Shown here: positions 6,120-19,324 of the stretch, piece by piece
Position numbering within the stretch: position 1 is the first letter of the stretch
Layout of the letters: every line of letters begins with the position of its first letter
From: a virus
Length of the DNA: 20,233 nucleotides
Virus record (IMG/VR): IMGVR_UViG_3300017697_004311
Span: 1-20,233 of that record
Strand: one strand, 5' to 3'
Program-made: the position numbers and the translations under genes
The notes under the pieces: model-generated
Database searches by the model: none
The model's input: the letters and a program-made list of their open reading frames with translations, nothing else
What the model was told of the DNA's origin: nothing

Positions 6120-6903
6120 ACTGGTTAGCAGTTGGAGCAGTCACGGCGGCAGCACTATGGCCCATATAGCTCTAACTAATTTACTAAATGACAATGGGTA
6201 TGACTGCACTTTTTATGGGGGCCAAGACTGGCATTTAGATAAGTGTAAAGCTAAACCGTTAGATGAGTTCCACTCTACTCCTGATGACATTGTTATCACA
6301 CACTTTATACGCTTCAAGGAGAAGCCCCCTGTGTGCAAGAAACATATCCTCAGTTGCCATGAAACCCATATGTGGCCGATTAAGGAAATGGTGTCTCAGG
6401 GAGCCCTCTCGCTGCCGTCCTATGATGCTATTCATTTCGTAAGTAATTTTCAAAAGGATTGGCAAGATATTGAACATCCAAATATTCATATTATACCTCC
6501 AATAGCAGAAAAAGTAAAGTGGAAGCGACCCAAAAAGAAGGTAGCAGGGATTGTGGGCAGTATTGACTGGAACAAGCAAGTTCACAAGTCTATCAATAGA
6601 GCCTTAAAGCGAGGTTATAAGAAAATCCTGCTTTTTGGTGATGTCACAGATATGCCCTACTTTAATGATTACATCGCTAAGTACATCAGATCTGGACAGG
6701 TGGTACTAGCAGGTCATGAGGACAACAGAGAAGCCCTGTACGGGCAGATCAGCGAAGTCTTCCATTCCTCCATTAGAGAGACCTACGGGCTCGTAGAGGC
6801 TGAATGTAGGCTTTCAGGGATACCCTTTAATGGGAACAGTAATAAACAACCAATATTATCAAATGAGGAGATATTAGAAAGATGGGAAAAAGTTTTAAAA
6901 TAG
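6106..6903 (+). CDS. Glycosyltransferase, GT-B fold (GT4-like)
   Basis: At 265 residues this is short for GT-B enzymes, but both halves can be seen. The first starts KVRLVSSWSSHGGSTMAHIA with a glycine-rich loop, and HFVSNFQKDW (110-119) matches the usual end of the acceptor domain. The second runs through AGIVGSIDWNKQVHKSI (147-163), LLFGDV (175-180) and ends with SSIRETYGLVEAECRLSGIPF (221-241), the GT4-type donor loop with Glu225 and Glu231. It overlaps the preceding gene by 14 bases and the following GT2 gene by 22, so translation is coupled. Short length may mean a compact phage version. Sugar specificity is unknown. Confidence 0.72.
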   Translation: MSKVRLVSSWSSHGGSTMAHIALTNLLNDNGYDCTFYGGQDWHLDKCKAKPLDEFHSTPDDIVITHFIRFKEKPPVCKKHILSCHETHMWPIKEMVSQGALSLPSYDAIHFVSNFQKDWQDIEHPNIHIIPPIAEKVKWKRPKKKVAGIVGSIDWNKQVHKSINRALKRGYKKILLFGDVTDMPYFNDYIAKYIRSGQVVLAGHEDNREALYGQISEVFHSSIRETYGLVEAECRLSGIPFNGNSNKQPILSNEEILERWEKVLK

Positions 6904-7616
6904 TCACTCCTGTGTATAACGCAGAAAAGTGGATTACCAAGTGTATTGATTCTGTTAAGGAACAATCGTATGAGAATTATGAACACATTATTGTAGATGA
7001 CTGCTCTACAGACGATACTCTCAAAATCGCTCACCAGCAAATTTTAGGTGATAAACGGTTTAAGCTTGTAAAGAAAGAATCTCGCATGGGTGTGATGCAT
7101 AGCCACATCACAGGGGCAGAGTTGCTTGGCAAAAACGCTGATCCAGAGGATATTTACGTTCACTTAGATGGAGACGATTGGTTAGCGCATGGTGATGTTC
7201 TGAAAAGAGTAAACGAGATTTATGAGGCTGATAATTGTTGGATGACTTACGGAAATTATGAAGCTACTGATGACTCACGCTCTGTGTGTAATCCTAAGGT
7301 AGAAGATCTAGCCGTTAGAATGCATATTCTGGCAGGATGGCCCTTTTCTCACCTACGAACCTTTAAGAAGTTTTTGTGGGACCGAGTTAAGACTGAATCT
7401 TTGGTAGACTCAAACAAAAAAGCATTTAGCTCGGCTTGTGACGTAGCCATTATGTGCCCTATGTTAGAGATGGCGGGGGATAGAGTTACTTTTATTGACG
7501 AAACTTTGTACATCTATAATAGAGAGAATCCTCTTAATGAGGATAAGGATCATCTTGATGATCAAATTAGGTGTGCTGTCGAAGTCGCCAAACAAATACC
7601 ATACGAAGCATTATGA
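6882..7616 (+). CDS. GT2 family glycosyltransferase
   Basis: A 244-residue inverting GT-A enzyme. The start is typical: FKIVTPVYNAEKWITKCIDSV (5-25), then HIIVDDCSTDDT (35-46), where the aspartates bind the nucleotide. VHLDGDDW (93-100) supplies the DxD-like metal site. The protein has no C-terminal membrane helices, unlike polymerising GT2 synthases, so it probably adds a single sugar in the cytoplasm. GAGGAG ahead of the ATG at 6882 supports the start. It ends at 7616 with an ATGA overlap to the GT11 gene. The donor sugar is not predictable. Confidence 0.87.
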   Translation: MGKSFKIVTPVYNAEKWITKCIDSVKEQSYENYEHIIVDDCSTDDTLKIAHQQILGDKRFKLVKKESRMGVMHSHITGAELLGKNADPEDIYVHLDGDDWLAHGDVLKRVNEIYEADNCWMTYGNYEATDDSRSVCNPKVEDLAVRMHILAGWPFSHLRTFKKFLWDRVKTESLVDSNKKAFSSACDVAIMCPMLEMAGDRVTFIDETLYIYNRENPLNEDKDHLDDQIRCAVEVAKQIPYEAL

Positions 7617-8386
7617 TTGGAAGTTTTATACAGGGAGGACTCGGAAACCAGCTTTTCCAAATCGCCGCAGGAGTGTCTCAAGCCAAGAGGATGGGATCTA
7701 CTTTTTCTGTCATAGAGGGACAGCACCATCTTCCCCTTCAAGGTAACAATATATCAACCTATAAAGATAATATCCTAAGAGGCGTGGATAGTAGACCTGA
7801 GAGTGATTTTGGACAATGCACGTTGTTCCAGGAGAGGGGTCATCACTTTACACCTCTTCCTGAAGTAGATAATATTTTCTTGATGGGTTACTTTCAGAGT
7901 GAAAAATACTTTGAAGACAATAAGGATGGCATTGCAGACCTTTTTAGCGTAACACCAGAAATCCAGGAAAAGATTGAGAAACAATATCCGTTTATTAAAG
8001 AAGAAAACGTAGTGTCCCTTCATGTGAGAAGAGGAGATTATTTAGATAATCCTACTATCCACCCCACTACGAGCGCCGATTACTATCAAAGTGCTCTTGA
8101 TTCTATTGAGGACAAGGATCGAGTGATTGTTTTTTCTGATGATATTGCTTGGTGCAGAGAGACTTTTAGTAAAGACTTTTCTTTCTCAGTATTTGAAGAG
8201 GATTATATGGATCTGTACACTATGGCTAACTGCACCCACCATATTTTAGCAAACAGCACCTTTAGTTGGTGGGGAGCTTGGCTTTCTAAAACCAAAGGTA
8301 AGATTATCGCACCTAAAACTTGGTTTGGTCCTGACGCACACTTAGAGCCTAAAGATATTATTCCTGATAGGTGGGAGAGATTATAG
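7613..8386 (+). CDS. GT11 alpha-1,2-fucosyltransferase-like enzyme
   Basis: GT11 enzymes transfer L-fucose from GDP-L-fucose in alpha-1,2 linkage. The 257-residue protein has the whole motif set: GGLGNQLFQIAAG (8-20), MGYFQSEKYF (91-100), SLHVRRGDY (135-143, GDP binding), VFSDDIAWCR (173-182) and MANCTHHILANSTFSWWGAWL (204-224). Length is close to bacterial FutC/WbsJ-type enzymes. The ATG at 7613 overlaps the GT2 stop (ATGA) and places GGLGNQ at the expected position; upstream in-frame codons would add residues that do not fit. No GDP-fucose synthesis genes (gmd, fcl) are visible, but a GDP-mannose 3,5-epimerase at 18323 could supply GDP-L-galactose, a close analogue. Confidence 0.92.
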   Translation: MIGSFIQGGLGNQLFQIAAGVSQAKRMGSTFSVIEGQHHLPLQGNNISTYKDNILRGVDSRPESDFGQCTLFQERGHHFTPLPEVDNIFLMGYFQSEKYFEDNKDGIADLFSVTPEIQEKIEKQYPFIKEENVVSLHVRRGDYLDNPTIHPTTSADYYQSALDSIEDKDRVIVFSDDIAWCRETFSKDFSFSVFEEDYMDLYTMANCTHHILANSTFSWWGAWLSKTKGKIIAPKTWFGPDAHLEPKDIIPDRWERL

Positions 8387-8387
8387 A

Positions 8388-9002
8388 ATGTTATTAAATT
8401 TAAAGAACCTGCATGACAAGTATGAACTGAATGTTAAAGGAGTCCTCCATATCGGAGCCCACTATGGGGAAGAGAACTCTATTTACGATGAATTAAATTA
8501 TCCAAATAGGATCTTTTTTGAACCTTTAAAAAAGAACTTTGATGTGTTGAGACAAAATGTTACCGAGTGGCCTCTAGTTAATATTGCCCTAGGCGCATCG
8601 ACACAGAATAAAGAAATGTATGTAGAGTCTGCAAATAACGGGCAGTCAAGTTCTTTGTTAAAGCCTAAGCTGCATTTACAGCAATACCCACACATTACCT
8701 TTCCTGAAAAAGAGGATGTTCTAGTTGATACTCTGGATAATGTTTTAGAGGATAAGGAGTCTTACAACTTCATCAACATGGATGTTCAGGGTTACGAGTT
8801 AGAGGTTTTAAAAGGGGCTACGGAGTCATTAAAGCACATTGATTATTTAATGTGTGAGGTGAATAGGGCAGAGGTGTATGAAGAGTGCTGCATGATAGAC
8901 GAGCTTGATTCTTTTTTGAGTTCTTATAATTTCAAAAGGGTAGAGACCACCTGGGATGGAGTTACTTGGGGAGACGCATTCTATGTCAAAGAAGAAGTTT
9001 AA
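8388..9002 (+). CDS. FkbM family methyltransferase
   Basis: A 204-residue SAM-dependent methyltransferase of the FkbM type, which usually O-methylates sugars. GVLHIGAHYGEENSIY (18-33) is the SAM-binding loop, RIFFEPLKKN (41-50) the second strand with its acidic residue, and FINMDVQGYELEVLKGA (128-144) the family hallmark, followed by YLMCEVNRAEVYE. GGGAGAG before the ATG at 8388 suits ribosome binding. It lies between two fucosyltransferase-family genes and overlaps the second by 20 bases, so a methylated sugar in the same glycan is likely (inference). Complete, with no signal peptide. Confidence 0.87.
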   Translation: MLLNLKNLHDKYELNVKGVLHIGAHYGEENSIYDELNYPNRIFFEPLKKNFDVLRQNVTEWPLVNIALGASTQNKEMYVESANNGQSSSLLKPKLHLQQYPHITFPEKEDVLVDTLDNVLEDKESYNFINMDVQGYELEVLKGATESLKHIDYLMCEVNRAEVYEECCMIDELDSFLSSYNFKRVETTWDGVTWGDAFYVKEEV

Positions 9003-9795
9003 TTTAATAGGAGGCCCGTTTCAACACGCTATTACGTCTACATTATGGAAAACTTCCAAGAACATAGAGTGGGAGTTTAATTCTAAGAATAACGACACCT
9101 CTTTTTATGTAGATAAAGAAGTGTTCTTAGCGTTGCAGGATAAGGATGACGGTCGAAAGAAATATGGGTGGCTTCTAGAATCCAGATCTATTGTTCCAGG
9201 GCTGGTGGAGCAAGTAATTGAGCATAAGGAGGTTCTCCTGGAAGTCTATGAAGCCATCTTTACTCATGACCAGAGACTACTATCATTAGATGATAAGTTC
9301 AAGTGGTGTCCTGCGTATGGATCCTATATTGATGAGCCTAAGATTCATGAGAAAACAAAGCTCGTTTCAATGGTCACTTCAAACAAGAATCTTACTCCTC
9401 TTCATGCGCTACGAAATTCTCTAGCTAATAAATGGAAGGATTCCTTAGACTTGTACGGTCGAGGATATCAAGAGATTGATAAGAAGGAAGAAGGGTTAAC
9501 TCCGTATATGTTTTCGATTGCGATTGAGAATGATATCTATGAGACATATTTTACAGAAAAGATCATTGATTGCTTTGCGACAGGAACCATTCCTGTTTAC
9601 TTAGGACCACCTAATGTTGGTGATCATTTTAATTCTGACGGTATTATTTATTTAACTGAAGACTTCGATCTTAACGATCTGTCTGAGGAGCTATACATAA
9701 GCAAAAAAGAAGCAATTCAGGATAATTATCAAAGAGCCCTAGAGTATGATGTCTTAGAGGATTGGATCTATGGGAGATATTTCAGTGACAAGTAG
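8983..9795 (+). CDS. GT10 alpha-1,3-fucosyltransferase-like enzyme
   Basis: This 270-residue protein ends with the conserved GT10 donor-binding motif: MFSIAIENDIYETYFTEKII (176-195), then DCFATGTIPVYLGPPNVGDHF (196-216), matching the FxxxxEN...YxTEKxxxxxxxGxxPVxxG pattern. KLVSMVTSNKNLTPLHALR (126-144) matches the middle of the family. Such enzymes use GDP-L-fucose and make alpha-1,3/4 links. ATG 8983 has GGGGAGA upstream; ATG 8956 would add nine residues and is less likely. The gene overlaps both neighbours. As with the GT11 enzyme, no GDP-fucose genes are in view, so an alternative L-sugar donor such as GDP-L-galactose is possible. Confidence 0.85.
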   Translation: MSKKKFNLIGGPFQHAITSTLWKTSKNIEWEFNSKNNDTSFYVDKEVFLALQDKDDGRKKYGWLLESRSIVPGLVEQVIEHKEVLLEVYEAIFTHDQRLLSLDDKFKWCPAYGSYIDEPKIHEKTKLVSMVTSNKNLTPLHALRNSLANKWKDSLDLYGRGYQEIDKKEEGLTPYMFSIAIENDIYETYFTEKIIDCFATGTIPVYLGPPNVGDHFNSDGIIYLTEDFDLNDLSEELYISKKEAIQDNYQRALEYDVLEDWIYGRYFSDK

Positions 9796-10513
9796 GAACT
9801 GTGTTGTTAAGCAACGAGCAGGACTCGGAGATATTATCTTAGGGCAGAAGATTGCGGATTTTTTTATTGAGGAAGGATACAATGTTTTTTGGCCTGTCAT
9901 TGATGAGTATTATGATGCTATCACAAAGCATATGAGCAAGAAGGGTATTACTTACTGTAGAGAGAGCGACGAGTTTCCCCTAAAAGAATTGTACAATAGT
10001 TATTACACCACCCCAGTAGTGATGAAGGATACTCAGGATCTCTACCTACCTATCCAGATGGCTGATCAGCATTTTCCAGGTGAGTCTGCCTTAAGAGCTA
10101 AGTTTAAAATTCTCTCTCTAGTTGCCGATGGTTGGCAGGACCACTTCGAATTAAAGCGAGATACAGAAAAAGAGGGTCGTTTATTTGAAGAGTTAGGCTT
10201 GTCAAATGAAGAGCCTTATATTTTGGTAAATAACCTTTATGGTTCTCCACCTACAACGGTGAAAAAAGATATTCCGATTGAATCTAAACTTCGCATCGTT
10301 GAGGTGGAAATGATGGAAGGCTACTCCATGTTTGATTGGTCTAAGGTTATAGAAAATGCTTCTGAGATTTACTGTGTAGACACAAGCCTATTTTACCTCA
10401 TTGATATGCTCGAACTAAAAGCGACAAAGCTAGAAGCTTACTCTAAATTTGAACCAGCTAATTATATGCACATTGCTGGTCTCTTTAAGGCTGCATGGAA
10501 TTACAATGAATAA
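9770..10513 (+). CDS. Probable GT-B glycosyltransferase, GT9-like
   Basis: The 247-residue protein starts with NCVVKQRAGLGDIILGQKIADFF, where GLGD (18-21) resembles the N-terminal loop of GT9 heptosyltransferases. Towards the end, IENASEIYCVDTSLFYLIDML (about residues 193-213) resembles their donor loop (VDTG..H.A...G). Between them the sequence is divergent. Full GT9 enzymes are about 320-350 residues, so this is compact. The next genes encode activated-sugar enzymes of heptose type, which fits a heptosyltransferase-like role, but this is inference. GAGG nine bases upstream supports ATG 9770; it overlaps the following gene by eight bases. Confidence 0.55.
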   Translation: MGDISVTSRNCVVKQRAGLGDIILGQKIADFFIEEGYNVFWPVIDEYYDAITKHMSKKGITYCRESDEFPLKELYNSYYTTPVVMKDTQDLYLPIQMADQHFPGESALRAKFKILSLVADGWQDHFELKRDTEKEGRLFEELGLSNEEPYILVNNLYGSPPTTVKKDIPIESKLRIVEVEMMEGYSMFDWSKVIENASEIYCVDTSLFYLIDMLELKATKLEAYSKFEPANYMHIAGLFKAAWNYNE

Positions 10514-11372
10514 TATAATTATTTTGGGCGCAGATCATAACGGTGTAGCGCATAAAAGACAGCTTGCAGATTCCTTGAGAGCAGAGGGTTACGTTGTAAT
10601 TGATATCGGTCCTTATGGCATTACTGAGAGTGTGGATTATGTAGATTATGCCCAGCAGGTCAGCCATATAGTGGGAGAGACACCCAACGCCAGAGGAATC
10701 CTTATCTGTGGTACTGGAGTTGGCATGAGCATTGCTGCCAATCGCTATGAGGGTGTGCGAGCAGCACTAGTCCATAATACTAAGACCGCTCCTAAATGCA
10801 GAGAACATAATGATGCTAACATATTGTGTCTAGGTAGTTGGGTAAACACATATGAGATCAATAAGGAGATTGTTGATCTTTGGATGAATGAAGCCTTTGG
10901 TGAGGGAAGGCATAATAAACGATTAGCTAAATTAGAGAATGCAGGAAGCAAGATTGTTTTCACTAATGGAGTCTTTGATATCCTGCATACAGGGCACTTA
11001 GAGCTATTGCAGTTCTCTAAGCGACTTGGAGATAGACTAGTGGTTGCCATTAATAGTGACGCATCTGTAAAATCCCTTAAGGGAGAGAATCGTCCGATCA
11101 ATAACGAAGCTAATAGAAAAAAGTTACTGGAGTCCTTGATTGAAGTGGATGAAGTGATTATCTTTGACGATAATCTGGAGGAGCTACGAAATCAAATTGA
11201 ACCTAATATTGTGGTAAAAGGAGGCGAGTGGACTGCGGAGCAAGTTCGTGAAAGGGATAACATTCCTGAGGATATTGAAATTAAACTCTTCCCTTTGGTT
11301 CAAGACTACTCCACAACAAATACAATTCGCAAAATACAAAATTTAGATGGATGGCAGAAGAATGATTTTTAA
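10506..11372 (+). CDS. Fusion: RpiB/LacAB-type sugar-phosphate isomerase + HldE-type nucleotidyltransferase
   Basis: Two complete domains are fused in 288 residues. Residues 1-147 match RpiB: ILGADHNGV (6-14), GILICGTGVGMSIAANR (64-80) with catalytic Cys68, and REHNDANILCLG (99-110). RpiB interconverts ribose-5-P and ribulose-5-P; relatives act on other aldose/ketose phosphates. Residues 148-280 match the nucleotidyltransferase domain of HldE/RfaE: VFTNGVFDILHTGHLELL (151-168) with the HxGH motif at 161-164, NSDASVKSLKGENRPIN (183-199), and YSTTNTIRKI (268-277). That family makes ADP- or CDP-activated sugars from sugar 1-phosphates. The ATG at 10506 overlaps the previous stop. The kinase half normally paired with HldE is a separate gene just downstream. 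I know of no standard protein with this pairing. Confidence 0.88.
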   Translation: MNNIIILGADHNGVAHKRQLADSLRAEGYVVIDIGPYGITESVDYVDYAQQVSHIVGETPNARGILICGTGVGMSIAANRYEGVRAALVHNTKTAPKCREHNDANILCLGSWVNTYEINKEIVDLWMNEAFGEGRHNKRLAKLENAGSKIVFTNGVFDILHTGHLELLQFSKRLGDRLVVAINSDASVKSLKGENRPINNEANRKKLLESLIEVDEVIIFDDNLEELRNQIEPNIVVKGGEWTAEQVRERDNIPEDIEIKLFPLVQDYSTTNTIRKIQNLDGWQKNDF

Positions 11373-12252
11373 AGATAAAAACATTTTGGTTATCGGAGAC
11401 AGTATCCTCGATGAAACGATTGTAGGCAGAGCGGTGGGTTGCTCTTTAGAGTCACCTACAATGAAGCTAGAAGAGAGCGCGAGGGAGGTGAGCTTTGGAG
11501 GCGCGGCAAACGTAGTGGAGAACATTCTGGCTCTAGGAGGTTCTTGCAAGTACATCACCCCCATGGGTAGGGACGAATACTCTCATTATTTTGAGAGTTG
11601 GCTCGACCAAAACCGTCCAAACTTATGGTTGTCCAGTTTAACGATGGACCGATTTAACAATGTGAAGACTAGGATATGGGCTACTAAAGAGGATGAGAGA
11701 TATAAATATCTACAAATCAATCGAACAGATGATACCGTAGTTCCTTTTCGGATCCCTACAATAAACCATCACATGGAAGGCATGGATGCTGTGGTTCTTG
11801 TAGATTATGGTTTAGGAATGTTTGGAGAAGTTAATTATATAATCAAAGCGGCGTTAAGTGCGGGAGTGCCTGTAATCGCTAGTTCTCAGATGTCCGATAG
11901 AGAAAATAGATATCATTTATTTGAAAAGGCTGACTACCTGTGTATGAACCTTTCAGAGTCCCAGGCATACGACAAATCCTTTCATGGTTGCATAACTCAC
12001 GGAGAGCAAGGATGCACTTTTCAAGACTCAAAACATAAACGCACACATACAGGATTTAAGGTAAAGTCGGTGGATCCTTGCGGAGCAGGAGATGCCTTCC
12101 TCGCTGCGTTCTCTTTATGTGTCCCACAGGTTGATGCAGACGCTTTGGCCTTCTGTAATGCGTGGGCTGCATTGTCTACAACAAAGCTGGGAACCACACC
12201 GCCTAAAATAGGAGAATTAGATGAGTTGCTTGGAAGTTCTTTTTGCCAATAA
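11347..12252 (+). CDS. HldA/RfaE1-like sugar-phosphate kinase (PfkB family)
   Basis: A 301-residue ribokinase-family enzyme resembling the kinase domain of HldE, which phosphorylates D-glycero-manno-heptose 7-phosphate at C1. ILVIGDSILDETIVG (13-27) opens the fold, VSFGGAANVVENILALGG (48-65) is the HldE-like substrate loop, and VDPCGAGDAFLAAF (242-255) holds the anion hole and catalytic Asp249. The family motif usually reads DTTGAGD; here it is DPCGAGD. The start may be 11347 or ATG 11362; neither has a clear Shine-Dalgarno site. It overlaps the isomerase-nucleotidyltransferase fusion at its 5' end and araD by 32 bases. With its neighbours it forms a split version of HldE. Substrate could be a heptose or another sugar phosphate. 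Confidence 0.83.
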   Translation: MDGRRMIFKDKNILVIGDSILDETIVGRAVGCSLESPTMKLEESAREVSFGGAANVVENILALGGSCKYITPMGRDEYSHYFESWLDQNRPNLWLSSLTMDRFNNVKTRIWATKEDERYKYLQINRTDDTVVPFRIPTINHHMEGMDAVVLVDYGLGMFGEVNYIIKAALSAGVPVIASSQMSDRENRYHLFEKADYLCMNLSESQAYDKSFHGCITHGEQGCTFQDSKHKRTHTGFKVKSVDPCGAGDAFLAAFSLCVPQVDADALAFCNAWAALSTTKLGTTPPKIGELDELLGSSFCQ

Positions 12253-12901
12253 ACAAATTGTTGATAAAAACTTAGTGATCCTCTCTTGGGGAAACGTAAG
12301 TAAAATAGATAGGGATAAGAATCTGCTATACATTAAGCCCTCAGGGGCAGACCTAGAGGAGATCAGCCAGTACGACATTGCTCAGGTTTCTACCCTGGAT
12401 GGAAGTTGGGTTCTTGGAATGAAGCCTTCAGTGGATACTAAAATCCATTTAGAGATATACAAAGGATTTAGTGATGTTGGAGCAGTCGTACATACTCATT
12501 CAGTACACGCTACAGCTTTTGCACAGGCAAACAAGCCGATCCCTTGCCTAGGCACTACACACGCTGACTATTTTTACGGAGAAATTCCTTGTGTGCCTCA
12601 ACCTACTGCTGAAGAGTTGGATGATGATTATGAGAAACATACTGGATTACGGATTGTGGATTATTTCGATTACTTTGACATAGATTATAACCATATTCCT
12701 GCCGCATTAGTCGAAGGACATGGTGTATTTTGTTGGGGAAAAACCGTTGAGGACGCAGTAGAGACTGCTATAATATTAGAGAAGGTAGCAGAAATGGCTA
12801 TCCTAACTTTGTCATTAAATAAAGATAGCAATCTTTCAGACTATGTGTTAGAGAAACATTTCACTAGAAAACATGGAGACTCAAAATATTATGGACAATA
12901 A
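12221..12901 (+). CDS. araD: L-ribulose-5-phosphate 4-epimerase-like (AraD, class II aldolase family)
   Basis: AraD interconverts L-ribulose-5-P and D-xylulose-5-P by retro-aldol cleavage on a zinc ion. The 226-residue protein has SWGNVSKID (22-30), IKPSG (38-42), KPSVDTKIH (68-76) with Asp72, the metal pair HTHS (His91, His93), TTHADYFYGEIPC (112-124) with Asp116, EGHGVFCWG (165-173) with His167, and the C-terminal YYGQ (223-226), whose Tyr is a catalytic residue in the E. coli enzyme. All key positions appear conserved. AGGAGA before ATG 12221 is a good ribosome site. No arabinose-use genes (araA, araB) accompany it, so in this context it probably makes a sugar precursor rather than degrading arabinose. 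Confidence 0.88.
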   Translation: MSCLEVLFANKQIVDKNLVILSWGNVSKIDRDKNLLYIKPSGADLEEISQYDIAQVSTLDGSWVLGMKPSVDTKIHLEIYKGFSDVGAVVHTHSVHATAFAQANKPIPCLGTTHADYFYGEIPCVPQPTAEELDDDYEKHTGLRIVDYFDYFDIDYNHIPAALVEGHGVFCWGKTVEDAVETAIILEKVAEMAILTLSLNKDSNLSDYVLEKHFTRKHGDSKYYGQ

Positions 12902-13310
12902 GCAGGATATTGCATATGGGATACAAACCCTCCCTCCCATAGACAAACCTCTTAAGTCTGTGGATAAATATTGGGGAAAGATGGATACGCTGTTTGAAGG
13001 TGAGGACTTTACTATCAAGAGAATTTACATGAAATCAGGTTCTCAGAGTAGTCTAGAATACCATGTTCGCAAAGAGGAGTCTTACTTTATTGAGAGTGGT
13101 ATTTTGAAAGTGGGCCTTCGGATTGGGAGAGCGGAAAATAAATCTATCACTCTGCACAAGGGAGATATTTTTCACATTCCTGTGGGCTTAATGCATATGC
13201 GGATTGCCATGGAGGATGTTGTCATTATAGAAAAATCATCCAAAGATGATGATGGAGATTCTCATTTAGTTGAGGACGGTAAAACTTACACACATATAGA
13301 AACACTATGA
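12891..13310 (+). CDS. Cupin, mannose-6-phosphate isomerase type II-like
   Basis: A single-cupin protein of 139 residues (145 if ATG 12873 is used). VDKYWGKMDTLFEGEDFTIKRIYMKSG followed by SLEYHVRKEESYFIESG matches the cupin domain found at the C-terminus of ManC and alone in type II phosphomannose isomerases. The metal ligands would be His and Glu in EYHVRKEES and the later His in VGLMHMR. The ending VVIIEKSSKDDDGDSHLVEDG also fits. Such an enzyme interconverts fructose-6-P and mannose-6-P, the entry to GDP-mannose, which the epimerase at 18323 would use. GGAGA 11 bases before ATG 12891 favours that start. No GDP-mannose pyrophosphorylase is seen. It could instead act on another sugar phosphate. 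Confidence 0.72.
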   Translation: MDNKQDIAYGIQTLPPIDKPLKSVDKYWGKMDTLFEGEDFTIKRIYMKSGSQSSLEYHVRKEESYFIESGILKVGLRIGRAENKSITLHKGDIFHIPVGLMHMRIAMEDVVIIEKSSKDDDGDSHLVEDGKTYTHIETL

Positions 13311-13972
13311 ATTTATTTATTGATACTGCTAACTTAGATGATATTAAAGATGCGTTCCAAACAGGAACCATTCAAGGTGTGACCACCAACCCATCCCTTC
13401 TTTCCAAAGAGCCTAAAGAAGATTTTATCACACACATTAAGAAGATCGTAGAGGTCTGCCAGGAGTATGGGAATGCCCCTCTGAGCGTGGAGGTATTTGC
13501 CGAAAAAGCAGAGGATATGTATGATCAAGCGGTGGAGATCTTCGATGAACTAAATTATAGTAATCTAAACATCAAAATTCCTGTAGGCTATGAGGAGTTA
13601 AAGGTAATTGAGAAGCTCGCTGGGGATGGAATCGCAGTAAACTGTACTTGCTGCTTCACGGCTACTCAGTTAGAGATGGCTGCCCTTGCAGGGGCTCGCT
13701 ATGTCTCTCTTTTTTATAACAGACTTCTTGATAGCGGAGGAGATCCTGTTGACGTTCTTAGGCAGGTAGAGCATTTCATTGACCAAAACGATCTAGACTG
13801 CGAAATAATCTCTGGGAGTATTCGTTCTGCGAATGATGTATCTAACGCATGGGCAGCAGGTTCTCATATTGTTACCGCAGGAATGTCTGTAGTTAAAAAG
13901 ATGATGGAGCATCCTCAAACAGATTTATCGGTGCAGGGCTTCCTCTCTGATTTTAAGGAGTGGCTTGGTTGA
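13307..13972 (+). CDS. talC: Transaldolase, TalC / fructose-6-phosphate aldolase type
   Basis: A 221-residue class I aldolase that passes a three-carbon unit between sugar phosphates through a lysine Schiff base. MNLFIDTANLDDI opens the barrel, GVTTNPSLL (24-32) is the family signature, LNIKIPV (87-93) holds the Schiff-base Lys90, and SLFYNRLLDSGGDP (134-147) and IISGSIRSANDV complete the site. Length and motifs fit the short transaldolase also known as an auxiliary metabolic gene in cyanophages. In a heptose pathway its product sedoheptulose-7-P would be the starting material. The start overlaps the cupin stop (ATGA), and the stop overlaps the phosphatase start (TTGA). Confidence 0.9.
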   Translation: MNLFIDTANLDDIKDAFQTGTIQGVTTNPSLLSKEPKEDFITHIKKIVEVCQEYGNAPLSVEVFAEKAEDMYDQAVEIFDELNYSNLNIKIPVGYEELKVIEKLAGDGIAVNCTCCFTATQLEMAALAGARYVSLFYNRLLDSGGDPVDVLRQVEHFIDQNDLDCEIISGSIRSANDVSNAWAAGSHIVTAGMSVVKKMMEHPQTDLSVQGFLSDFKEWLG

Positions 13973-14271
13973 TTTACTTTGTTGATATTGACGGAACCAT
14001 TTGCTCTGATACTAAGGGGAACTATACACAAGCTCAACCTCTCAAAGACAAAATTGATAAAGTTAATAGTTTGTACGATGACGGACATACTATAATTTAT
14101 TGGACAGCCAGAGGCATGACCAGAGCTAAAGGAAATGTCCACAAAGCCTACGAGCTTTGTTATGATCTTACCAGACAGCAGCTTTCAGATTGGGATGTAA
14201 GGTTTCACGAATTAAGAATGGGAAAGCCTTATTACGATGTCTTCTTTGAGGACAAGGCAGAGGAGATTTAA
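13969..14271 (+). CDS. Minimal HAD-family phosphatase
   Basis: About 100 residues with all four HAD motifs: DIDGT (Asp6, Asp8), IIYWTARG with Thr46, Lys86 in GKPYYD, and the acidic FFED (Glu94, Asp95). There is no room for a cap domain, so it is a very compact HAD of the kind seen in some capsule and nucleotide-sugar loci. The start is probably TTG at 13969, eight bases after AAGGAG and overlapping the transaldolase stop; a GTG at 13960 would overlap that ribosome site. In the pathway it could remove the C7 or other distal phosphate, the role of GmhB, although it lacks the length and zinc loop of GmhB. Substrate is inference. Confidence 0.72.
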   Translation: MIYFVDIDGTICSDTKGNYTQAQPLKDKIDKVNSLYDDGHTIIYWTARGMTRAKGNVHKAYELCYDLTRQQLSDWDVRFHELRMGKPYYDVFFEDKAEEI

Positions 14272-15527
14272 TGGGATACTACTTTCAAACTATTAACACA
14301 GAAGACTATATTCAAAAGTTTTCTTTAAAGAATTATGTTGAGACAGGAACAGGAGAGGGTGCTACACTAGCCCACTCTCTTAATGCGTCTTTTGAGAACG
14401 CTTATTCGGTAGAGATTAATTCCACCATCTATGAGAGAGCGTTACAAAACTTTAAGACCAGACTAAGCACTGGAGAGTGTGGCATATGGTTTGGAAACTC
14501 CTTTGAAAAACTTCCCGAGATCCTCAAAGAGACGGAAGGAAACACTTTGTTCTTCTTGGATGCTCACTTTCCAGGAGCAGACTTTCAATTAGCCAAGTAT
14601 GAGGATGAAGAAGATTATGATACCAGACTCCCACTAGAAAAGGAGATCGCAGTCATCTTAGAGAACAGGGATGTTTCTGACGATGTTTTCATTATTGATG
14701 ATTTGGTAATTTTTGAACCTGATGGTGGCCCTTATGAGGCTGGACCCCTTACCCTGCCTAGGGATATTTGTCCTCAGAACGGTATTGAATTCTTAGAGAA
14801 GGCATTCTCTGAGACTCACGATATCACTAGATCTTATACCTCTCAAGGCTTTTTGATTATTACCCCAAAACAAACAAAAAAGTTTACTCTGACCAATAAT
14901 GATGGCGTTAGTCCTTGGGTTGAAGATTTATACAATCAATATCTACCTAAAAAAGGTTTGTTCGTAGAGGTGGGTATCGGACACACAGTAGACAGACATT
15001 GGACTGCGGAAAATACTAAGAAACATCTAGATGAAGGTACAGTTCCTTCTGCGAGATGCGGGAGCAACACCTTAGATCTTCTCGATCAGCGGTACGCAGG
15101 TGTTTACATTGATCCTGTTAAGGAGTTTTGTGAAGAGTTAGAGTTAATTACTAAAGATAAAAACATTACTATCTTGAACAGGGGATCATCAGACAAAACG
15201 GAATCAAGAACTATGTATGGAGGAGAGACCTTTATGCCTAATCCCCATACCACCTGGCCTGGTGGTGTAGATTATATCGGTAGGCAAGTGGAGTGTGGCC
15301 CCGTATCTGATATGTTAGATGAGCTATCTATCACCTCTGTTGATTTGATGTCAATTGATGTTGAAGGGTGGGAGATGCAAGCCTTAGCAGGAATCAGAGA
15401 TGAGCATCTTCCTAAAGTTCTGATTATAGAAATTGATAAAACAGCAGGGCTTCATGAAGTATTATATAACAAAGGATATACTTTAAAATACAGCGATCAT
15501 CGTGACGCTGGCTATGTAAGGAATTAA
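14271..15527 (+). CDS. Two-domain methyltransferase with C-terminal FkbM domain
   Basis: The 418-residue protein looks like two Rossmann methyltransferase units joined. The N-terminal part (1-about 200) has NYVETGTGEGATLAHSL (21-37), SVEINSTIYERA (46-57) and TLFFLDAHFPG (about 91-101), the pattern of TylF/class I-like sugar methyltransferases. The C-terminal part begins near 225 with GLFVEVGIGH and carries the FkbM hallmark VDLMSIDVEGWEMQALAGI (357-375) followed by VLIIEID. It is a fusion: each half is close in size to a single-domain enzyme such as the one at 8388. The start overlaps the HAD stop (TAATG). It would methylate cytoplasmic sugars or nucleotide sugars; order and sites are unknown. 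Confidence 0.75.
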   Translation: MGYYFQTINTEDYIQKFSLKNYVETGTGEGATLAHSLNASFENAYSVEINSTIYERALQNFKTRLSTGECGIWFGNSFEKLPEILKETEGNTLFFLDAHFPGADFQLAKYEDEEDYDTRLPLEKEIAVILENRDVSDDVFIIDDLVIFEPDGGPYEAGPLTLPRDICPQNGIEFLEKAFSETHDITRSYTSQGFLIITPKQTKKFTLTNNDGVSPWVEDLYNQYLPKKGLFVEVGIGHTVDRHWTAENTKKHLDEGTVPSARCGSNTLDLLDQRYAGVYIDPVKEFCEELELITKDKNITILNRGSSDKTESRTMYGGETFMPNPHTTWPGGVDYIGRQVECGPVSDMLDELSITSVDLMSIDVEGWEMQALAGIRDEHLPKVLIIEIDKTAGLHEVLYNKGYTLKYSDHRDAGYVRN

Positions 15528-15530
15528 ATT

Positions 15531-16763
15531 ATGAACATCGGTTTTATAGGATTAGGTAAACTCGGACTCCCCTGCGCTCTTGCAGTAGAATCAAAAGGAC
15601 ACAAGGTTTGGGGTTATGATATTAACCCCGCTGTAGAAACAATTTTATCTACAAAGAAATTACCTTACAGGGAGATTTGGGCACAAGATCATCTCGATAA
15701 CTCTGAAATTAAATTCTCTTCTGTAGAGGAGGTGGTTTCAAATAGCGAGATCATTTTTGTACCTATCCAAACTCCTCACGATGAGCGTTTTGAAGGAACT
15801 ACCAGAATTGCTGAAGACAGGGTAGATTTTGATTACACTTATCTCAAAGCAGGAATTAAATCCTTGTCTGAAGAAATTCACAAACAAGGAGAGGAGAAGG
15901 TTGTAATTATTATTTCAACTGTTCTTCCTGGAACTGTTGAGCGAGACATCAAACCTCTTCTAAATGATAAGGTTAAGTTGTGTTACAACCCCTTCTTTAT
16001 TGCCATGGGTACTACCATGAGAGATTTTCTCAACCCAGAGTATGTTTTGTTTGGGGTGGATAATCAGGACGCAGCAGATAAGGCAGAAGCATTTTATCGA
16101 ACTCTCCATGATAGACCTTTCTACAGAACTGAGATTAAAAATGCGGAACTTATCAAGGTGGCATATAATACCTTCATCGGTATGAAGATTGCATATGCCA
16201 ATACTATGATGGAGATTTGCCATAAGATTGGAGCAGATGTGGACGAGGTTACAGGAGCCATGAGCCTCGCCACAGAGCGCCTCATCAGCGGAAAGTATCT
16301 GTCAGGAGGCATGGGAGACGGTGGAGGGTGTCATCCCCGTGATAATATTGCTATGTCTTGGTTAGCAAAGAAGCTAGACTTAAGTTATGATTTCTTTGAG
16401 TCTTTGATGATTGGAAGAGAGCAGCAAACGGAATGGTTAGCTGATCTTATTGAAGAGCATAAAGGAGACTTACCAGTCACGATCCTGGGTAAGGCATTTA
16501 AAGAAGAAACTAATCTTGTGGTGGGAAGTCCCTCCATATTATTGAGAAATATTCTAGAGGAGAGAGGAATGAGGCCCACAATGTACGATCCTTACATTGA
16601 TGAGGGGTTCCCCTTTAATGTTTATCAGCCTCGCCTGTTCTTTATAGGCACGAAGCACAGTGAGTTCAATAGCTACGAGTTTCCCAAAGGTTCCGTTGTC
16701 TTAGACCCTTGGCGTTATATGTCAGATCAAGAGGACGTTGAAGTTATCAGAATCGGTGAGTGA
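15531..16763 (+). CDS. UDP-glucose 6-dehydrogenase-like enzyme (UDPG/GDP-mannose dehydrogenase family)
   Basis: This NAD-dependent family oxidises C6 of a nucleotide sugar to a carboxylate in two steps, for example UDP-glucose to UDP-glucuronate. The 410-residue protein starts with the NAD loop MNIGFIGLGKLGLP (1-14) and DIN (30-32). The bridging segment AELIKVAYNTFIGMKIAYAN (205-224) holds Lys209 and Asn213, and GGGCHPRDN (264-272) holds catalytic Cys267; most UDP-glucose dehydrogenases read GGSCFPKD, so the pocket differs. A C-terminal Rossmann half follows (VTILGKAFKEETN, then MRPTMYDPYIDEG). AAGGA eight bases upstream suits ATG 15531. Substrate could be UDP-glucose, GDP-mannose or an N-acetyl-hexosamine form. 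Confidence 0.85.
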   Translation: MNIGFIGLGKLGLPCALAVESKGHKVWGYDINPAVETILSTKKLPYREIWAQDHLDNSEIKFSSVEEVVSNSEIIFVPIQTPHDERFEGTTRIAEDRVDFDYTYLKAGIKSLSEEIHKQGEEKVVIIISTVLPGTVERDIKPLLNDKVKLCYNPFFIAMGTTMRDFLNPEYVLFGVDNQDAADKAEAFYRTLHDRPFYRTEIKNAELIKVAYNTFIGMKIAYANTMMEICHKIGADVDEVTGAMSLATERLISGKYLSGGMGDGGGCHPRDNIAMSWLAKKLDLSYDFFESLMIGREQQTEWLADLIEEHKGDLPVTILGKAFKEETNLVVGSPSILLRNILEERGMRPTMYDPYIDEGFPFNVYQPRLFFIGTKHSEFNSYEFPKGSVVLDPWRYMSDQEDVEVIRIGE

Positions 16764-17590
16764 TGAGAGCTAAGTTCACTTATGTAAGAAGCTTTCTAAA
16801 GTCCACAAAAGTTGCTGGGAAGTTTGATATTGGTTTATTTGCTAATGTTCTTCCTTATGCCAATAAATATATCGGCGCTGTACGAGAGGGGAGTACCAAA
16901 TTAGACGATACCGTCGCTGTAATTGAGCTAGATCAAGACTTTAAATTACTTGATTCGTCCAGTATAACCCAGGGCGAGGATCCTCGATGCTTCAGTTATA
17001 GAGGTATCCCATATGCATTAACTTGGGATCCGTATTCGAAAGATGGTTCTAATCACTTTAAATACAAAGTAATAAATTTATTAACAAAAAAGAAGGTAGA
17101 TCTTACGATTGATAAAGTTCCTGAAACTCCCGTAGGAAGGTTAGGAAAAAATTGGATACCTTATGTTAAAGACGATGATCTTTATTTTATCCTATCAATA
17201 GAGCCTGAACTTTCGATGCTTAAGTGTGATATAGAAACTGGTTTCTGCGAATGGGAAACAGAATATAAAGAGGAACTTTCAATCACCCTTAGCAGGGGAG
17301 GAACTCCCATGGTTTACTTAGAAGAAGCAGAGTGCTATGTAGGCTTTGGACACAGAACCCACGACTGTCATAATCACAAACCCTTTCTATATGGGATTGG
17401 TAAAAACGGTGAAGTATTTGTAGACTCTAAAGACATGGAAGTTCCTAGAGACAAGGGGGTATATGATCCCTTGTCTTTGTATTGGAAGGAGGGTGTTCTA
17501 TACTGTTGTGTAGCATACTTTCCTATCCAAGCAGGAGATACTGGAGAAGGCTGGACTGATCTATTTGAGGTGACATTTGATGAGCTATAA
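16763..17590 (+). CDS. Beta-propeller glycosidase/phosphorylase-like protein (GH130/GH43-like)
   Basis: The 275-residue protein seems all-beta. GEDPRCFSYRGIPYALTWD (71-89) and GKNWIPYVKDDDLYFILSIEP (128-148) match the repeated blade pattern of five-bladed propeller sugar enzymes such as GH130 mannoside phosphorylases and related transferases, in which the EDPR stretch carries the key acid. SRGGTPMVYL and YVGFGHRTHD follow. No signal peptide is present, so it works in the cytoplasm; there it may build or trim a glycan link using a sugar phosphate. Family membership is judged by motif only. ATG 16763 overlaps the dehydrogenase stop (TGATG); the GTG at 16760 is an alternative start. Confidence 0.6.
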   Translation: MRAKFTYVRSFLKSTKVAGKFDIGLFANVLPYANKYIGAVREGSTKLDDTVAVIELDQDFKLLDSSSITQGEDPRCFSYRGIPYALTWDPYSKDGSNHFKYKVINLLTKKKVDLTIDKVPETPVGRLGKNWIPYVKDDDLYFILSIEPELSMLKCDIETGFCEWETEYKEELSITLSRGGTPMVYLEEAECYVGFGHRTHDCHNHKPFLYGIGKNGEVFVDSKDMEVPRDKGVYDPLSLYWKEGVLYCCVAYFPIQAGDTGEGWTDLFEVTFDEL

Positions 17591-18326
17591 AAAAACAATA
17601 ATTGACTGGTTAAAGGATTACGCGATACAAGCTAATATGAAAGGCTTTGTTGTGGGGGTTTCAGGAGGGGTTGATTCTGCCGTAACTTCTACATTATGCG
17701 CTCTTACGGGTCTTCCTGTATACGCTGTGGGATTACCTATTCCTTCTGGCTTTGAGGCTGAGGTGTTACAGTCTAGATCAGACTTACAATTAGACTGGCT
17801 TAAAAATAATTATTCTAATGTAACCACAGAGGTTATCTCCTTAGATAAAGTTTACAATGTTTTCTCTGGTGAGGTAGGTAGTGACGCTCTGGGGTATGCA
17901 AATATGAAAGCTCGTATTCGCATGACTGCGCTCTATGCTTTAGCTTCTAGGGAAAATTCTTTAGTGGTGGGTACAGGCAACAAGGTAGAGGATTTTGGAG
18001 TAGGCTTCTTTACTAAGTATGGAGATGGAGGAGTAGATATATCCCCTATCGCTGATCTGATGAAAACTGAGGTATTTGAGCTTGCAAGCGAATTAAATGT
18101 CCCACAAGAAATCCAGGATGCACCTCCCACAGACGGTTTATGGGGAGACGGTAGGACTGATGAAGACCAATTAAACGCAACTTATGAAGAACTAGAATGG
18201 GCGATGACCTATAATAGCGAGAGGAGATTACTTGCGAGGGAGCAAGAGGTTCTTAAGATTTACAATGACCTACATTCTGCTAACGAGCATAAAATGCTTC
18301 CCATCCCCGTATGTAAATTAAAATGA
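17580..18326 (+). CDS. nadE: Ammonia-dependent NAD+ synthetase
   Basis: NadE makes NAD+ from nicotinate adenine dinucleotide, ATP and ammonia. The 248-residue protein has the PP-loop VSGGVDSAV (27-35), YANMKARIRMTALYALA (106-122), and the family hallmark VGTGNKVEDFGVGFFTKYGDGGVDISPIADL (130-160). It lacks a glutaminase domain, so ammonia is the nitrogen source. GAGGTGA six bases before ATG 17580 is a strong ribosome site, the best in the cassette. Neighbours are a beta-propeller protein and two NAD-using enzymes (15531 and 18323), so it may keep up NAD+ for nucleotide-sugar chemistry. A role in countering NAD-depleting phage defence is a further possibility without direct support. Confidence 0.92.
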   Translation: MSYKKTIIDWLKDYAIQANMKGFVVGVSGGVDSAVTSTLCALTGLPVYAVGLPIPSGFEAEVLQSRSDLQLDWLKNNYSNVTTEVISLDKVYNVFSGEVGSDALGYANMKARIRMTALYALASRENSLVVGTGNKVEDFGVGFFTKYGDGGVDISPIADLMKTEVFELASELNVPQEIQDAPPTDGLWGDGRTDEDQLNATYEELEWAMTYNSERRLLAREQEVLKIYNDLHSANEHKMLPIPVCKLK

Positions 18327-19324
18327 AAAAGAAAAATGCAATAGTGTGTGGCGCGGGTGGCTTCATCGGAGGCCACATGGTAAAAAGACTCTTAGATGAA
18401 GGCTATGTGGTAGCCGCAGTTGATGTAAGAGCTTTTGATGAGTGGGATCAAGTTCACTCCGAAGCAATCAATCAGGACAACTTTGACCTAAGAAATCCTA
18501 ACTCGGTAGAGAGTTTAATTCGTAATGCTCAAGCGACTGAGCTTTATCAGTTTGCAGCGGACATGGGAGGAGCGGGTTATATTTTCACAGGCGAGCATGA
18601 TGCGGATGTGATGCATAACTCTGCTTTAGTAAACCTTAACATAGCTAAAGCTATTGCTTGTTACAGTTCTCACACCAAAGTGTTTTACTCCTCTTCGGCT
18701 TGTATCTATCCCCAGCATAATCAGGTTGATCCTGACAACCCTAACTGCGCGGAGGATTCAGCGTATCCTGCACACCCAGACTCTGAGTATGGGTGGGAGA
18801 AACTCTTCTCTGAGAGGATGTGGAGGTCTTACGCGAGAAACTACAATCTAGAGGTTCGCGTAGCACGATTCCATAACATCTTCGGGCCTGAAGGGACATG
18901 GGATGGTGGAAAGGAGAAAGCTCCTGCTGCCATGTGCCGTAAAGTGGCAGACGCTCAGTGGTCTCCTGAAGAAGGTTTAACAATTGATGTATGGGGTCCA
19001 GGAAACCAAACCAGATCCTTTTTGTACATTGATGAGTGCCTAGAGGCCGTTCGGAGGCTGATGGACTCGGACGTAGAAGAGGTTATTAACATTGGTTCGG
19101 ATGAGATGATCTCCATTAATAACTTAGCTAAGATGGCTGCTGGCTTCCGTGGAGAGAAGGTTAACATTAGAAATATTGATGGGCCTGTGGGGGTTAATGG
19201 TAGAAATAGTGATAACACTTTAATTAGGGAACTCCTTGGATGGGCTCCCTCGATGCCTTTAGAAGAGGGCATGAAGATTACTTACGATTGGATTGCTGAA
19301 CAAATCAAGAAAAGGGATAACTAA
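18323..19324 (+). CDS. GDP-mannose 3,5-epimerase (GME-like)
   Basis: A 333-residue extended short-chain dehydrogenase/reductase that would turn GDP-D-mannose into GDP-L-galactose (and GDP-L-gulose) using bound NAD+. After the GAGGFIGG loop (10-17), FAADMGGAGYIFTGEHDADV (77-96) carries the GME signature ADMGG. SSSACIYPQ (123-131) holds catalytic Cys127, and YGWEK (156-160) the Tyr-Lys pair. RFHNIFGPEGTWDGGKEKAPAA (182-203) includes the Lys matching the plant enzyme, and NIGSDEM, VGVNGRNSDN and LGWAPSMPLEEGMKITYDWI follow the plant sequence closely. This separates it from generic sugar epimerases. GME is best known from plant vitamin C synthesis. The start overlaps nadE (ATGA). Confidence 0.92.
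   Translation: MKKKNAIVCGAGGFIGGHMVKRLLDEGYVVAAVDVRAFDEWDQVHSEAINQDNFDLRNPNSVESLIRNAQATELYQFAADMGGAGYIFTGEHDADVMHNSALVNLNIAKAIACYSSHTKVFYSSSACIYPQHNQVDPDNPNCAEDSAYPAHPDSEYGWEKLFSERMWRSYARNYNLEVRVARFHNIFGPEGTWDGGKEKAPAAMCRKVADAQWSPEEGLTIDVWGPGNQTRSFLYIDECLEAVRRLMDSDVEEVINIGSDEMISINNLAKMAAGFRGEKVNIRNIDGPVGVNGRNSDNTLIRELLGWAPSMPLEEGMKITYDWIAEQIKKRDN

Follow-up and report, generated by a model that had tools for sequence, protein, structure and literature searches.

Among the closest described systems are the Campylobacter heptoses, for which isomerase, 1-kinase, 7-phosphatase and nucleotidyltransferase steps starting from sedoheptulose-7-phosphate are established (PMC10680097). The lincosamide GDP-octose pathway uses the transaldolase LmbR, which has ribose-5-phosphate as its acceptor, the isomerase LmbN, the phosphatase LmbK and the nucleotidyltransferase LmbO (PMC12945683, PMC5854111). 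In RpiB of trypanosomatids, Arg113 is one of three arginines (Arg113, Arg137 and Arg141) assigned to phosphate stabilisation (PMC4882579; see also PMC4783025). In a paper on pelagimyophages both rfaE and LPS genes are mentioned, and those passages of it that were found say nothing of a fusion of the kind described below; our literature search for RpiB–heptose fusions likewise returned no paper describing one.

The RpiB–nucleotidyltransferase fusion

The window, that is, the whole 20,233-bp stretch of viral DNA analysed here, carries phage replication genes for the end of NrdA, a DnaB-like helicase, an SSB of the gp32 type and a protein like UvsY. Glycosyltransferase, methyltransferase and sugar genes come next, in a long series that runs in one direction. 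Encoded at 10506–11372 (+ strand) is a protein of 288 residues, whose ORF begins with ATG, ends at a stop codon and overlaps the adjacent genes at both ends, an arrangement resembling that of a translationally coupled operon. The gene overlapping its start (9770–10513, + strand) has no Pfam or PHROG match; it possibly encodes a glycosyltransferase and is at most a putative member of the cassette.

An earlier note on this DNA had read the ORF as an RpiB-like isomerase joined to an HldE-type nucleotidyltransferase, with Cys68, GTGVGM and an HTGH motif at residues 161–164; Pfam, NCBIfam and the homologues bear this out, and all three motifs are correctly numbered, with the catalytic motifs intact. 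Pfam places LacAB_rpiB at residues 5–143 (E = 2e-47) and CTP_transf_like at residues 152–246 (E = 7e-17). With 142.7 bits the NCBIfam model rpiB (TIGR01120) passes its cutoff of 138.65, and rfaE_dom_II (TIGR02199), with 149.5 bits (5e-44), falls short of its curated 181.5. From a 16-sequence alignment, residue counts and the literature on RpiB residues, the RpiB/LacAB isomerase domain was assigned to residues 5–143 (10518–10934, + strand). The TIGR02199 match, the alignment and a Foldseek match to HldC of Burkholderia pseudomallei (5xf2) assign an HldC/RfaE2-type nucleotidyltransferase domain to residues 149–279 (10950–11342, + strand), in which HTGH lies at 10986–10997 and the KGxxRP and STT motifs are invariant. 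The AlphaFold2 model has two well-predicted domains joined by a low-confidence linker (residues 131–146). It was predicted as a monomer, and RpiB active sites sit between subunits. The isomerase half returns RpiB structures such as 3he8.

A search for this architecture recovered 57 full-length fusions, in 54 viral loci (53 plus L299) and three cellular genomes: a SAR11 (Pelagibacteraceae) single-cell genome (L082), a Candidatus Kaiserbacteria genome (L083) and another Patescibacteria genome (L197/L249). So many independent full-length homologues rule out a frameshift or an assembly accident. No full-length match was found in 50,697 named phage records, and no fusion in plasmids, whose long matches (H53 and H54) are ordinary 470-residue HldE proteins; a 31% full-length match, L042, was rejected as a 413-residue HldE-like kinase–nucleotidyltransferase. 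Among sampled relatives the fusion occurs in 1 of 297 Pelagibacterales and 2 of 380 Patescibacteria, and cellular carriers are therefore rare. When a tree is built from RpiB domains, those of the fusions group as a single clade, separate from 38 sampled standalone RpiBs.

The fold and the catalytic Cys/Thr/His set are those of RpiB. Invariant across the 57 fusions are Cys68 (10707–10709), His101 and Arg135/His136/Arg139; at position 70, 55 of them have Thr and two have Ser. The 16-sequence alignment shows no variation in the catalytic residues. The phosphate site is altered: the equivalents of Arg137 and Arg141 are present (Arg135 and Arg139), but that of Arg113 is replaced by Trp112 (10839–10841) in 57/57. 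Standalone cellular RpiBs have Arg or Lys at this position in 38 of 38 cases and never Trp. The 29 standalone viral RpiBs divide by context, with Trp in both of those that lie inside AraD–RpiB–PfkB–TalC–cupin cassettes (L309 and L316) and Arg in all 27 outside, so that Trp112 follows the pathway or cassette and not the fusion. Each of these two records has a separate HldC-like gene; the fused activities thus also exist as separate genes in such clusters. Each of the three cellular genomes with the fusion encodes another, standalone RpiB, and the fusion is therefore unlikely to be their housekeeping enzyme. We conclude that the RpiB domain is probably a pathway-specific ketose/aldose-phosphate isomerase of a new nucleotide-sugar pathway.

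Partners in the cassette

Overlapping the fusion by 26 bp is the gene of a PfkB kinase (11347–12252, + strand), whose nearest named family is HldA/RfaE domain I. That the kinase is a separate protein had been recognised in the earlier note, and by itself this is nothing unusual. In the first locus set 56 of 57 kinases have the GAGD motif, the odd one out being truncated; counted over distinct cassette kinases, it is intact in 43 of 44. Against the curated HldE-half model the kinase scores 116.6 bits (cutoff 345); kinase and nucleotidyltransferase are homologous and nearest to the HldE halves HldA and HldC, yet both fall below curated cutoffs.

Downstream lies an AraD gene (L-ribulose-5-phosphate 4-epimerase family; 12221–12901, + strand), above the cutoff of NF006047. 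Aligned to 1jdi, its product keeps the equivalents of Asp76, Asp120 and Tyr229 and the three zinc-binding histidines; Asp72, His91, His93, Asp116 and His167 occur in 36/36 distinct members, one of which ends short at the Tyr. It is followed by a cupin resembling the C-terminal part of mannose-6-phosphate isomerase (12873–13310, + strand; PF01050, 5e-7), with Glu62, His64, Glu69 and His108 invariant. A relative of this cupin in cyanophage S-SSM7 is annotated as cysteine dioxygenase.

The next gene (13307–13972, + strand) encodes a TalC with Glu62 and Phe136, present in 40/40 distinct members, which we take to be the transaldolase state. Fructose-6-phosphate aldolase has Gln59 and Tyr131 at these positions (PMC13259622), and that role was rejected for TalC. 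The SAR11 cassette carries a transaldolase of another subfamily (TIGR02134), so that transaldolase activity itself seems to be needed. Split transketolase-like genes lie near one Patescibacteria cassette (L249:15618–17463), and a transketolase-like gene is also found near the S-SM2 sugar genes.

Last is a small HAD phosphatase (13960–14271, + strand) resembling EcbF/BcbF (TIGR01689, 2e-10, below cutoff), which also matches HAD-IIIA weakly, below cutoff. It keeps the DxD...TxR...K...D pattern, with the aspartates conserved in 36/36 distinct members, and in Patescibacterium G641 it forms a single protein with the cupin. Proteins of 103–119 residues named 'phosphoheptose isomerase' in cyanophages Sf-CH8, S-SM2 and S-SSM7 (L162, L163 and L164) are homologous to this phosphatase, not to GmhA.

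Near the fusion, in the 56 loci of the first set, were found PfkB in 53, TalC in 50, cupin in 48 and HAD and AraD in 46 each, several of the shortfalls being contig ends or overlapped ORFs. By comparison, TalC and AraD are each absent from all of 60 viral control loci whose nucleotidyltransferase has no fused RpiB and is in most cases a canonical HldE accompanied by a cupin. RpiB, TalC and AraD are therefore an added submodule, the core being nucleotidyltransferase, kinase, cupin and HAD, which cyanophages have too. The flanking genes change from one phage group to another, and five loci (L231, L232, L238, L241 and L242) have the cassette genes in a shuffled order, which argues that the linkage is functional and not inherited synteny alone. 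The earlier reading of the neighbourhood was right about the kinase and incomplete otherwise: the transaldolase, AraD, cupin and HAD phosphatase are constant partners, and they define the pathway better than does the fusion alone. In three loci (L011, L208 and L209) a second nucleotidyltransferase, PfkB and cupin set lies directly downstream of the fusion cassette, which suggests two activated sugars in one phage.

Genes of the GT9 heptosyltransferase family lie beside the cassettes of SAR11 (1.5e-18), Patescibacterium G641 (3.7e-22), L309 and L316 (3e-14 and 3e-13) and one phage cluster (profile probability 97), a support that consists of family membership only. None was recognised within the window; after profile comparison with GT9, the gene at 9770–10513 is at most a possible member of the family. 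The parts of the window at 6882–9795 and 14271–19324 make up a large surface-glycan island, with glycosyltransferases of the GT2, GT11 and GT10 families, FkbM methyltransferases and both a dehydrogenase and an epimerase for nucleotide sugars. Within it, at 17577–18326, is a phage-borne NAD+ synthetase gene (NadE family).

A candidate nucleotide-sugar pathway

Taken together, the genes at 10506–14271 form a conserved nucleotide-sugar gene set that is apparently uncharacterised. We judge it slightly better than an even chance that the fusion carries out two steps of a dedicated NDP-heptose pathway encoded by this region. In such a pathway, TalC would transfer a dihydroxyacetone unit from fructose-6-phosphate to erythrose-4-phosphate, yielding sedoheptulose-7-phosphate, and AraD, where present, would epimerise the ketose phosphate at C4. 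The RpiB domain, its specificity shifted from ribulose-5-phosphate, would then convert the heptulose-7-phosphate into an aldoheptose-7-phosphate, which would be phosphorylated at C1 by the PfkB kinase, relieved of its C7 phosphate by the HAD phosphatase and coupled to a nucleotide by the C-terminal domain of the fusion. A GT9-type or other glycosyltransferase would place the heptose on a surface glycan, probably altering the envelope of the infected cell. What can be read directly from the genes is which of them make up the set, how conserved it is, that the active sites are intact and that the RpiB signature has changed; substrates, chain length, configuration, nucleotide and step order are proposed here, as are the parts played by AraD and the cupin.

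An NDP-heptose is favoured by the Campylobacter reaction order, the likeness to HldA and HldC, the transaldolase signature and the adjacent GT9 genes, the last three of which also favour heptose over a pentose or an octose. We know of no RpiB that acts on C7 phosphates, and the cupin has no clear role. The main misfit is AraD, a poor fit as it normally works on pentulose phosphates, and for this reason a pentose route has to be weighed, although we hold it to be unlikely. In that scheme AraD would make L-ribulose-5-phosphate from D-xylulose-5-phosphate, RpiB would convert it into L-arabinose-5-phosphate or L-ribose-5-phosphate, and kinase, HAD phosphatase and nucleotidyltransferase would lead to an NDP-L-pentose. 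It accounts well for an AraD with all of the E. coli catalytic residues checked and a score above the curated cutoff, and RpiB enzymes are pentose-phosphate isomerases, some active on L-sugars (PMC4783025). It fares worse with five loci (L002, L003, L012, L013 and L245) in which AraD is missing and the remainder of the cassette is present, and with a near-constant transaldolase that a pentose would not need; the kinase, nucleotidyltransferase and nearby GT9 genes indicate heptose, and Trp112, at a phosphate-side residue, speaks against an unaltered pentulose-5-phosphate substrate. An octose would call for the transaldolase, since three carbons would be added to a pentose-5-phosphate, in the manner of LmbR, before isomerase, kinase, phosphatase and nucleotidyltransferase gave an NDP-octose, with AraD and RpiB supplying or modifying the C5 acceptor. 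We nevertheless regard this as very unlikely: the cassette is likened to the Lmb enzymes by reaction type only, it is not obvious how a single RpiB would act on the pentose as well as at the octose step, and GT9 adjacency favours heptose. Still less probable is that the RpiB domain only raises the supply of ribose-5-phosphate for phage nucleotide synthesis and that the nucleotidyltransferase fusion is incidental. Phage transaldolases are widespread, mostly in cyanophages, and the RpiB catalytic residues are intact, but Trp112 tracks the cassette, the domain is constantly accompanied by kinase, HAD, cupin and AraD, and host genomes keep a second RpiB.

The earlier note had gone further, arguing that the RpiB-type domain and not GmhA is the committed isomerase of the pathway. 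Membership in a sugar-activation pathway with a separate HldA-like kinase stands, as does the distinction from housekeeping RpiB, marked by Trp112 and by a separate RpiB in 3/3 host genomes; replacement of GmhA on sedoheptulose-7-phosphate is no more than putative. No SIS_2 (GmhA) match was found in any of the 53 fusion-bearing viral records searched, nor a GmhA above threshold in the two fusion-bearing Patescibacteria. GmhA is likewise missing from 38 control records, from phages in which HldE is canonical or the nucleotidyltransferase is unfused, so its absence is not by itself evidence of replacement, and we dropped it as proof. Adjoining the SAR11 cassette is a GmhA-like SIS protein (L082:5676–6257) with Asp and Ser at positions 65 and 180 in an alignment to 5i01, where GmhA has Glu65 and His180, presumably its catalytic residues. 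As a matter of substance, RpiB rather than GmhA is likely to be the isomerase of the pathway, with a heptulose-7-phosphate as its putative substrate. A canonical ADP-D-glycero-D-manno-heptose pathway with RpiB merely substituting for GmhA, as the earlier note had it, draws on this same absence of GmhA and on the HldA/HldC likeness; it is nonetheless quite unlikely, given the control phages, the lack of an HldD-type epimerase among the constant partners and an AraD and a transaldolase that would be superfluous. The known products of RpiB and LacAB are, moreover, usually of 2R configuration, not manno.

Returning to the NDP-heptose reading, a tentative extension is that a mobile cassette of six genes, which marine phages have in common with Patescibacteria and one SAR11 bacterium, produces a nucleotide sugar new for phages, for example a non-manno NDP-heptose (possibly a C4 epimer set by AraD), by way of an RpiB-type heptulose-7-phosphate isomerase joined to the final nucleotidyltransferase. 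The cassette points to an undescribed nucleotide-sugar pathway carried by phages as one unit and offers a way to learn which sugar they put on host surfaces. Trp112 is a clear residue marker of a re-purposed RpiB, and the presence of RpiB and TalC in a marine virus is not necessarily a sign of central carbon metabolism.

Comparison with known systems

Marine viral contigs in the series L016–L081 (for example, L018, L020, L028, L058 and L075) encode HldE or a separate kinase and nucleotidyltransferase, an HldD-like epimerase and a mannose-6-phosphate-isomerase-like cupin, and no GmhA; this cupin could be the missing sedoheptulose-7-phosphate isomerase. The sets of S-SSM7, S-SM2, Sf-CH8, L018, L063 and L066 share with the cassette a homologous nucleotidyltransferase, kinase, HAD phosphatase and cupin. 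They differ in that the regions examined contain no RpiB, TalC is missing from the neighbourhood and AraD is represented at most by a weak aldolase match in S-SM2; some have an HldD-like epimerase.

The lincosamide octose pathway (LmbR, LmbN, LmbP, LmbK and LmbO) is alike by reaction type, a transaldolase-type enzyme building a ketose that then passes to isomerase, kinase, phosphatase and nucleotidyltransferase; its isomerase, however, is fused to a phosphopantetheine-binding domain. We know of no AraD in that pathway. With RpiB/AlsB and LacAB the fusion shares the fold, the catalytic Cys and His and the phosphate-site Arg135 and Arg139, but it has the invariant Trp112 in place of Arg113, usually Val for Pro at residue 46 and a C-terminal nucleotidyltransferase, and it coexists with standalone RpiB in all three cellular genomes.

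Compared with the HldE/ADP-heptose pathway, the isomerase of the cassette is of the RpiB type instead of GmhA and is fused to the nucleotidyltransferase, a transaldolase, AraD and cupin are added, the phosphatase is EcbF/BcbF-like, a candidate at most for the GmhB function, and there is no constant HldD. Common to both are an isomerase, a C1 kinase, a putative distal phosphatase and a nucleotidyltransferase, with the kinase and nucleotidyltransferase homologous to the two halves of HldE and GT9 genes near several of the cassettes.
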